Assembly (NCBI GenBank): GCA_025464925.1
Contig: JAODMS010000006.1
Coordinates: 1-13,049, forward strand
DNA length: 13,049 nt
From: Arthrobacter sp.
GTDB lineage: Bacteria > Actinomycetota > Actinomycetes > Actinomycetales > Micrococcaceae
Reading direction: 5' to 3'
In this document: positions 11,366 to 12,878 of the stretch, one piece after another
Numbering within the stretch: the stretch's first letter is position 1
Layout: each line of letters opens with the position of its first letter
Program-made: the position numbers and the translations under genes
Notes under the pieces: generated by a model
Database searches by the model: none
Seen by the model: the letters and a program-made list of their open reading frames with translations, nothing else
Told to the model about the DNA's origin: nothing

Positions 11366-12268
11366 CTACTGGCGGACCTGCTGGCGCCGGGCCCGTGTCA
11401 GCTCGGCCCTGGCCAGCAGGCCGCTGTCGGACGGGTAGGCGACTTCCTCGAGCACCAGCGGATGCGGGGCGGCCAGTACCGACCGAGCGTCCCGCTGGCG
11501 GGCCAGCAGCCGCTCCAGCAGCCAGCCGGGAGACTCGACGCCCGCGCCCACGAACAGCGCCGAACCCACCAGGGAGCGCACCATGTTGTGGCAGAACGCA
11601 TCGGCCTGCACGGTGGCGACAATGACCCCGTCAGAACCGCGGGCGAACTCAAAGCGCTGCAGTTCCCGGATGGTGGTGGCGCCTTCCCGGGGCTTGCAGT
11701 AGGACCTGAAATCCTGCAAGCCGAGCAGTTGCGAGGCGCCCTCGTTGAGCAGTCCGACGTCGAGCTCGTTTTGGTGCCAGAGCGTCCAGGTGCGGCCGAG
11801 CGGATCCCAGAGGGCAGGGCCGTCCGCAATCCGGTAGCTGTAGCGGCGCCAGAGGGCCGAGAACCGGGCGTCGAAGCCTTCCGGGGCCACCGACACCCGG
11901 TGCACCTCGATCGCTCCCGTAAGGTCGCCCAGCCCTCGGCTCAGGGCGCCGCGGAGGCGGCGGACCAGCGCGACGGCGGGGTCGAGTTCGGCTCCGCGGT
12001 TCAGGCCCAGCCACTCGGCCATGCTGAGGTCCAGGTGGACCACTTGGTCGCGGGCGTGCACACCGGCGTCGGTCCGGCCGGCGACGGTGACCCGAACGGG
12101 GCGGCGGATCAGCAGTTCCAGGGCCTCTTCCAGCGTGCCCTGGACGGTGCGCAGCCCGGGCTGGACGCCCCATCCGTTGAAGGGGCCGCCGTCATACCCA
12201 AGATCAAGACGGATACGCAAAAACCCGCCGCCCCCCGGAACGGGGGCAGCGGGTTTCTGTTCGTTCAT
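11366..12268 (-). CDS. truA: tRNA pseudouridine synthase A (positions 38-40)
   Basis: TruA converts uridine to pseudouridine in the anticodon stem-loop (positions 38, 39, 40) of tRNAs. From the ATG at 12268 it is 300 residues. The catalytic motif GRTDAGVHA places the nucleophile at Asp67. Other family segments are LDLGYDGGPFNGWG (21-34), VQGTLEEAL (42-50), RRYSYRI in the middle, and DAFCHNMVRSLVGSALFVGAG in the C-terminal half. The first 16 residues are a variable Pro/Gly tail whose DNA forms a terminator-like hairpin. A TTG 57 bases upstream would overlap rplQ and is unlikely. There is no Shine-Dalgarno; the ATG is the end of an 18-nt palindrome. It follows rplQ by 31 nt, the usual actinobacterial order. 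Confidence 0.95.
   Translation of the reverse strand: MNEQKPAAPVPGGGGFLRIRLDLGYDGGPFNGWGVQPGLRTVQGTLEEALELLIRRPVRVTVAGRTDAGVHARDQVVHLDLSMAEWLGLNRGAELDPAVALVRRLRGALSRGLGDLTGAIEVHRVSVAPEGFDARFSALWRRYSYRIADGPALWDPLGRTWTLWHQNELDVGLLNEGASQLLGLQDFRSYCKPREGATTIRELQRFEFARGSDGVIVATVQADAFCHNMVRSLVGSALFVGAGVESPGWLLERLLARQRDARSVLAAPHPLVLEEVAYPSDSGLLARAELTRARRQQVRQ
12219..12256 (-). terminator. intrinsic-terminator-like hairpin inside the 5' coding part of truA
   Basis: On the minus strand AAACCCGC-T-GCCCCC (12256 to 12242) pairs with GGGGGC-G-GCGGGTTT (12235 to 12221) around a 6-nt loop. That is 15 bp, with one G.U that pairs only in the minus-strand RNA (it is a C.A mismatch in the plus-strand RNA). 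A T5 run spans 12223-12219. This is a textbook intrinsic terminator layout, 44 nt after the rplQ stop, where an alpha-operon terminator could be expected. It lies within truA codons 5-17, so it may act as an attenuator of truA that translating ribosomes would melt. Confidence 0.7.
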
Positions 12269-12283
12269 AGACTTAAGTCTATG
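12266..12283 (-). promoter_or_regulatory. 18-nt perfect palindrome containing the truA start codon
   Basis: CATAGACTTAAGTCTATG reads the same on both strands, and its last three bases on the minus strand are the truA ATG. It sits in the 31-nt rplQ-truA gap where a Shine-Dalgarno would be expected. In RNA the arms would pair the AUG. As DNA it could be an operator, and its left part, TAGACT, fits TAnnnT at about -13 to -8 from the ATG, as in a leaderless promoter. Structure seen; function inferred. Confidence 0.6.
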
Positions 12284-12299: not shown

Positions 12300-12878
12300 T
12301 TACTTCGCGTCCTTCTCGGACTCAACGGCTGCGTCCTCAGCGGCCGGAGCCTCTTCGGTCACAACAGCGTCAGCCTGGGGAGCGTCAGCAGCCTCGGTAA
12401 CTTCAGCTTCAGCAGCTTCGGCCTCGACGGGAGCGGCGACGGCCTTGTCGGCGTCGCGCTTGTCGGCGTCGCGCTGGGCGGCGGAGGTAGCCTCGGCTAC
12501 CACTGCCTGCTTCGCGGAAACCGGCTCAAGAACCAGTTCGATGACAGCCATGGGAGCGTTGTCGCCCTTGCGGTTGCCGATCTTGGTGATGCGGGTGTAG
12601 CCACCTTCGCGGTTCTCCACTGCCTGTGCGATGTCGGTGAACAGCTCGTGGACGATGCCCTTGTTGCTGATCAGGCCGAGTACGCGGCGGCGGGAAGACA
12701 GGTCGCCACGCTTGGCGAAAGTCACCAGGCGCTCGGCGTACGGCTTCAGTCGCTTGGCCTTGGTCACCGTGGTGGTGATCCGCTTGTGCTCGAACAGGGC
12801 GGCGGACAGGTTCGCGAGCATAAGACGCTCGTGAGCCGCTCCGCCTCCGAGGCGCGGACCCTTAGCGGGTGTAGGCAT
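12300..12878 (-). CDS. rplQ: 50S ribosomal protein L17
   Basis: This large-subunit ribosomal protein has 192 residues. The first 120 or so match the L17 family: [30 protein letters not shown] at the start, [26 protein letters not shown], then [23 protein letters not shown]. The family core is about 120-130 residues. The last 70 or so residues are an Ala/Glu/Asp-rich, probably disordered acidic extension, a type common in actinobacterial L17, and contain an exact [10 protein letters not shown] duplication from a 15-bp tandem repeat. The start ATG at 12878 has AGGAG at plus positions 12887-12891 with an 8-nt spacer. It lies between rpoA and truA in the alpha-operon order. Confidence 0.97.
12444..12473. 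repeat. 15-bp tandem duplication within rplQ
   Basis: The unit CTTGTCGGCGTCGCG occurs twice back to back (12444-12458 and 12459-12473). Because it is a multiple of three it keeps the frame and encodes a doubled Arg-Asp-Ala-Asp-Lys block in the L17 tail. It was probably created by replication slippage. Confidence 0.85.

Follow-up and report, generated by a model that had tools for sequence, protein, structure and literature searches.

An intrinsic-terminator-like hairpin within the first codons of truA, behind a predicted leaderless start, in Arthrobacter sp.

Terminators are ordinarily regarded as punctuation between genes. At the rplQ–truA junction of an Arthrobacter sp. (contig JAODMS010000006.1) a terminator-like hairpin is found within the first codons of truA. 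This raises the question of how truA can be read at all. The window, i.e., the whole stretch of 13,049 nucleotides that was analysed, carries on its minus strand rplQ (12878-12300), a 31-nt gap and truA (12268-11366). The features of the junction are as follows.

12300..12878, minus strand: rplQ (ribosomal protein L17), an open reading frame with its stop codon at 12302-12300, taken as the final gene of the alpha operon
11366..12268, minus strand: truA, tRNA pseudouridine(38-40) synthase of 300 amino acids; its N-terminal extension, residues 1-17, is encoded across the hairpin
12218..12259, minus strand: intrinsic-terminator-like hairpin of 18 bp (left arm 12259-12242, loop 12241-12236, right arm 12235-12218) in truA codons 4-17
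12219..12223, minus strand: U5 run on the hairpin's 3' side, within Phe TTT and Leu TTG (codons 16-17)
12276..12281, minus strand: TAGACT, a -10-type hexamer (TANNNT) 7 nt 5' of the truA start, accounting for the greater part of the palindrome's left arm
12268, minus strand: A of the ATG, where a leaderless truA mRNA is predicted to begin, as deduced from the spacing of the hexamer
12266..12283, no strand assigned: perfect 18-nt palindrome CATAGACTTAAGTCTATG, comprising the -10 hexamer, the spacer and the start codon

The product of rplQ scored 120 bits against the NCBIfam L17 model TIGR00059 (cut-off 70). TruA matched TIGR00071 (hisT_truA) from residue 19 onward with an E value of 1e-39; the score of 136 bits is slightly under the cut-off of 143. 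The L17 protein of the window (12300-12878) has a long variable acidic/alanine-rich tail and reached 255 bits against the NCBIfam "L17 sunset domain variant", below the cut-off of 280.

The junction was compared in 80 named loci, in 110 genomes of the genus group to which the window belongs (G001, the window's group) and in four further genera (G086, G006, G059 and G007, the named members among them being L015 and L021, L012, L005 and L008). For the window's group 150 genomes were searched; 147 had rplQ and 110, mostly better-scoring ones, were taken. For G007, an A. agilis-type genus, 38 genomes were searched, 36 matched, 30 were taken and 28 used (L225 has masked bases, L238 was not parsed). 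The motif parser accepted 41 of the 80 named loci, its failure not meaning that truA is absent. The closest junction among those compared was L099 with 90% identity to the window. Members of one genus are not independent, so that all counts within a group overstate the evidence. For the TAGACT count and the in-frame constraint in the window's group the start was located regardless of frame. For the cross-genus counts of TANNNT, hairpin location, start pairing, arm swaps and coding it was taken in frame with the truA core, TANNNT being preferred. L088 was excluded from the hairpin calls, and the pair counts also exclude three frame-broken loci.

The hairpin in codons 4-17 of truA

A 15-bp hairpin with a U5 run had originally been predicted in codons 5-17. 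Its position inside truA and the U5 run were confirmed, whereas the extent given was too short: the stem has 18 bp and occupies codons 4-17. Counted from the A of the ATG, the left arm starts at +10. The 41 nt from 12258 to 12218 fold with -35.6 kcal/mol (z -6.7). Across 93 unique sequences the two codons of the U5 run are TTT in 92 and TTG in 88. A generic terminator scan, which truncates the truA hairpin, returned 10 sites in the window as compared to 9.7 in shuffles; since it performed no better than shuffles it was left out of the evidence. The hairpin caller used for the comparison was wrong or weak in 11 loci (5 of 41 named, 3 of 29 in G086, 2 of 28 in G007 and 1 of 23 in G059).

Compensatory changes were looked for across relatives in both stems of the junction. 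They were found in the hairpin and not in the palindrome, for which the window's group contains no compensatory double change. In the 55 unique hairpin sequences of the group 96% of the cells are paired, while slid controls gave 0.49-0.65, and 10 double-change cells are distributed over 5 pairs. When arms were exchanged with those of relatives, the native arms folded better in all four genera tested, and this advantage holds even in genera with a different stem sequence. A wobble pair that forms only in the minus-strand RNA had been offered as evidence for the strand. The U.G pair 12248/12229 is real, being U.G in 27 of the 55 unique sequences, but it carries little weight: it involves the third base of an Ala codon, and 23 of the sequences have a nonstandard pair at this position (G.G in 21). 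Better indications of the hairpin's direction are the U run and the upstream position of rplQ.

The hairpin lies inside truA in 107 of 110 genomes of G001, 26 of 29 of G086, 5 of 5 of G006 and 26 of 28 of G007; the locus L156 was scored as upstream solely through its broken frame. In 18 of the 23 genomes of G059 it lies 5' of the truA start, which argues that the terminator goes with rplQ and would be expected if truA has extended across an rplQ terminator in the other genera. From the rplQ stop codon to the left arm there are about 40 nt in the window, 38-43 nt in its group and as few as 27 nt in G007. Synonymous differences are threefold fewer in the hairpin codons of the window's group than in the truA core (pS 0.18 and 0.51, respectively); in other genera the shortfall is smaller (0.34 vs 0.55, 0.31 vs 0.59 and 0.36 vs 0.59). 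The compensatory changes, the different stems in sister genera and the reduced synonymous differences in the window's group suggest that the alpha operon probably ends at this hairpin, its intrinsic terminator having been incorporated into truA. A terminator of the alpha operon overlapping truA had been named as the simpler reading in the original prediction, and it is the part of it that is best supported, the structure being conserved with compensatory changes.

A different overlap of a terminator with truA was seen in two Demequina loci (L035 and L064), where the ATG of truA falls within the rplQ terminator-like hairpin itself.

The -10-type hexamer and a predicted leaderless start

As originally stated, no Shine-Dalgarno sequence precedes truA; direct reading of the 30 nt 5' of the ATG revealed no such run. 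Instead TAGACT is present in 111 of 111 junctions of the group (the window and its 110 relatives), and the spacer to the start codon is 7 nt in 110 of them. The more general TANNNT was found 6-7 nt before the truA start in 29 of 29 genomes of G086 (TAATAT in 28), 4 of 5 of G006, 22 of 23 of G059 and 28 of 39 named loci, these cross-genus counts being somewhat inflated because start selection favoured TANNNT. As background, 48 of 15810 ATG or GTG codons (0.3%) have TANNNT at this distance. The pattern TAGACT-N7-ATG occurs 165 times in 14 genomes (truA included), as compared to 50 occurrences each for the reversed pattern and for a 12-nt spacer. Outside truA 72 such places were listed for six genomes; 60 of these were examined as controls, and all 60 open at least 21 stop-free codons. 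Among 126 loci with TAGACT the start codon of truA is ATG in 109 and GTG in 17. A standard sigma-70 promoter was not called.

In Corynebacterium glutamicum (PMC3890552), TAnnnT precedes about 97% of the mapped starts and 33% of the mRNAs are leaderless. The invariant TAGACT 7 nt before the ATG, together with TANNNT as the rule in three related genera, suggests that the truA mRNA probably starts leaderless at the A of the ATG. G007 (L225-L254) has TANNNT 6-7 nt before the truA start in 0 of 28 genomes; with an internal terminator and no TANNNT, truA would have to be read some other way there. In 28 of the 29 genomes of G086 (L191-L219, the genus of L015 and L021) TAGACT is replaced by TAATAT, which lies within a different hairpin.

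With a probability of roughly 0.6, the arrangement is best explained by a shared alpha-operon terminator within codons 1-17 of truA, a leaderless truA promoter and passive attenuation. Polymerases leaving rplQ would reach the hairpin 40 nt beyond the stop codon, out of reach of the last ribosome, and would terminate there. Those from the putative truA promoter, with TAGACT at -13 to -8 and transcription beginning at the A of the ATG, would reach the hairpin 10-51 nt after initiation, and a fraction would pass. The terminator would thus double as a built-in, probably constitutive, attenuator that holds TruA low. What the sequences themselves show is the anatomy of the junction, its conservation, its dual coding and a spacing like that of a promoter; from these we infer a working promoter, a working terminator and partial passive passage into truA.

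The expected outcome at the hairpin follows from work in E. coli (PMC4824070). In that work a ribosome halted at a stop codon no longer represses a terminator located more than 27-30 nt beyond it. With the left arm 38-43 nt past the rplQ stop codon, alpha-operon transcripts should end at the hairpin, and truA transcripts often too. The same source argues from terminators in the first 100 bp of coding sequence against translation melting them. By these data, a terminator at such an early position in a gene should work efficiently, and passive attenuation is therefore our first choice. They also leave it puzzling why a hairpin of such strength should be tolerated. Leaderless 70S initiation may shift the balance between termination and passage.

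Alternative readings of the start and of the palindrome

We considered four alternatives. First, the two kinds of transcript could differ in their fate: read-through RNA would bury the truA start and the terminator would act, whereas leaderless RNA, with its AUG exposed at the 5' terminus, would load a 70S ribosome over the left arm of the terminator and truA would be read. The original prediction had the AUG hidden by the palindrome. As a switch within one truA mRNA this is not supported, since the -10-type left arm would be absent from a leaderless RNA, and the fold could hide the start on read-through RNA only. On the longer RNA, however, the start is indeed buried to a greater extent than the starts of 60 further genes of leaderless type; the difference is clear in the window's group and less so in the sister genus G086. 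From -26 to +6 the mean pairing of the start codon is 0.90 over 107 genomes of the group as compared to 0.29 and 0.28 in two sets of 40 and 20 TAGACT-N7-ATG genes other than truA, and on longer stretches it is 0.75-0.88 as compared to 0.30-0.45. In L129 both sides have changed and the start is still paired (0.97). For G086, which was assigned to the class with the terminator inside truA by hand, pairing is 0.87 over 16 unique sequences that are unrelated to the arms of the window, and exchanging the halves between sequences weakens the fold (-11.8 native vs -10.6 swapped, p 0.0018, uncorrected for relatedness).

Counted by genome, however, the mean in G086 falls to 0.66 (17 of 29 above 0.5), as one sequence, common to 12 of the 29, keeps the start largely unpaired; longer stretches give 0.55-0.66, nearer to the controls. 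The swap test detected no covariation of the start fold in the window's group (p 0.22). Pairing is low or inconsistent in G006 (5 genomes) and G007 (28 genomes), and in the 19 genomes of G059 with the terminator upstream it is still 0.41-0.62. Moreover, an E. coli terminator 30 bp past the AUG lost only about 10% of its efficiency by translation (PMC4824070). We therefore regard different fates for the two transcripts as possible but doubtful. A gate in the strict sense, in which one terminator discriminates two near-identical RNAs and the palindrome acts both as -10 element and as anti-start arm, is more doubtful still. If it existed, the expression of truA, whose product modifies tRNA and belongs to the translation apparatus, would scale with the capacity for leaderless (70S) initiation.

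Second, truA could start at the TTG at the end of the hairpin (12220), so that the hairpin would be an ordinary intergenic terminator and the upstream frame incidental. This TTG is present in 101 of 107 sequences of the group, and the conserved TruA domain begins beside it, the family match starting at residue 19. In addition, four genomes (L001, L128, L155 and L156) have G5 in place of the G6 run of the hairpin, which puts the upstream ATG and the truA core in different frames. Real frameshifts would undercut the use of the ATG; the alternative is homopolymer sequencing errors, and all four genomes are on contigs of 3.8-4.8 Mb, which would fit long-read errors of this kind without proving them. 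In G007 the in-frame constraint over the hairpin is weak, with a pN/pS of 0.76, the out-of-frame values for the whole stretch being 0.83 and 1.59. An apparent frame break was also noticed in L088, farther downstream within truA.

Against a start at TTG, the window's group has CTG instead in 5 of 107 sequences, and in G086 the position is TTT, TTC or CTT in 29 of 29. Without a start-like codon after the hairpin the upstream ATG is likely the start in that genus. Between the ATG and the TruA core the reading frame is unbroken in 108 of 111 junctions of the window's group, and pN/pS over this stretch is 0.45 in frame, as compared to 0.87 and 2.59 out of frame. Furthermore, TANNNT holds its distance to the ATG. 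A start at TTG is thus improbable, and moving the truA start past the hairpin by start-codon trimming would drop a conserved coding stretch.

Third, as the original prediction proposed, the palindrome could open and close on some signal within a single RNA and thereby decide on termination. That the ATG (12268-12266, minus strand) forms the final three bases of the palindrome 12266-12283 is correct. No other perfect 18-nt palindrome occurs in the window, where 0.10 would be expected from composition and 0.15 from 40 mononucleotide shuffles. As RNA it folds well (-7.9 kcal/mol, z -5.5), and on longer RNA the start is sequestered more than in other genes. However, the invariant part of the palindrome is the -10 hexamer, and the outer pairs decay uncompensated. 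In other genera the sequence of the palindrome is gone and the TANNNT hexamer is retained, G007 excepted. The palindrome hairpin and the terminator have no base in common, and the minimum-energy fold contains both; being compatible, they do not offer the either/or pairing of classical attenuators. In the window no Rfam family reached its gathering score, and the L17 downstream element was not among the 21 matches up to E 10. An attenuator working on one RNA is, in our judgement, very unlikely.

Fourth, the perfect dyad symmetry across a -10 element could mark an operator at which a regulator shuts off the truA promoter, but this is hardly credible, as the inner 16 nt, searched with one mismatch in 7 genomes, have a single place each in 5 of them (on both strands in 3, by symmetry), and as both 7-nt arms are perfect in 50 of 110 loci of the group (the window among them), the symmetry being lost in the other 60. 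With one place per genome, an operator of a regulon was rejected as well.

A bidirectional promoter was also considered, TAGACT being present on the plus strand too. This requires AGTCTA on the truA strand, which is missing in the 41 of 126 loci with the spacers TAGGTCT, TGGGTCT, TATGTCT or TGTGTCT, in which the sense hexamer is kept; the candidate was rejected.

Comparison with known systems

In the open-access literature we found nothing that joins truA, rplQ and a terminator, and no title on a leaderless truA. The preferred reading, a shared terminator behind a leaderless promoter with passive attenuation, can be set beside four known systems.

Leaderless transcripts of Actinobacteria (M. 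tuberculosis, PMC3898074; C. glutamicum, PMC3890552) likewise have TANNNT shortly before ATG or GTG and lack a Shine-Dalgarno sequence. In truA, unlike in these, an intrinsic terminator begins at +10, and the start is predicted rather than mapped. The tR2 early-coding constructs of PMC4824070 resemble truA in carrying a hairpin in the first 100 bp of coding sequence and more than 27-30 nt past a stop codon. The truA hairpin, in contrast, is natural, dual-coded and conserved over several genera, and it stands behind a leaderless-type start rather than a ribosome binding site. As in the pyrBI and amino-acid leader-peptide attenuators (as described in PMC4824070), what becomes of the terminator could hinge on a ribosome that follows the polymerase closely. 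Unlike in those translation-coupled systems, neither a separate leader peptide nor a competing antiterminator was seen at truA, and the terminator is in the structural gene. RNA 3' ends inside open reading frames are known from E. coli (PMC7815308); these were mapped experimentally, whereas the end in truA is predicted and would serve the upstream operon.

The truA hairpin seems to be a terminator spelled out in codons, conserved across several genera in both its protein-coding and its terminator role. It would make a natural system in which to ask if a 70S ribosome that has loaded on a leaderless mRNA can outpace an intrinsic terminator or block it, the comparison being E. coli, in which, with a normal ribosome binding site, an early terminator works almost fully. 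The parts are known from these systems; their arrangement, a terminator in the codons right behind a leaderless-type start, is unusual and conserved.
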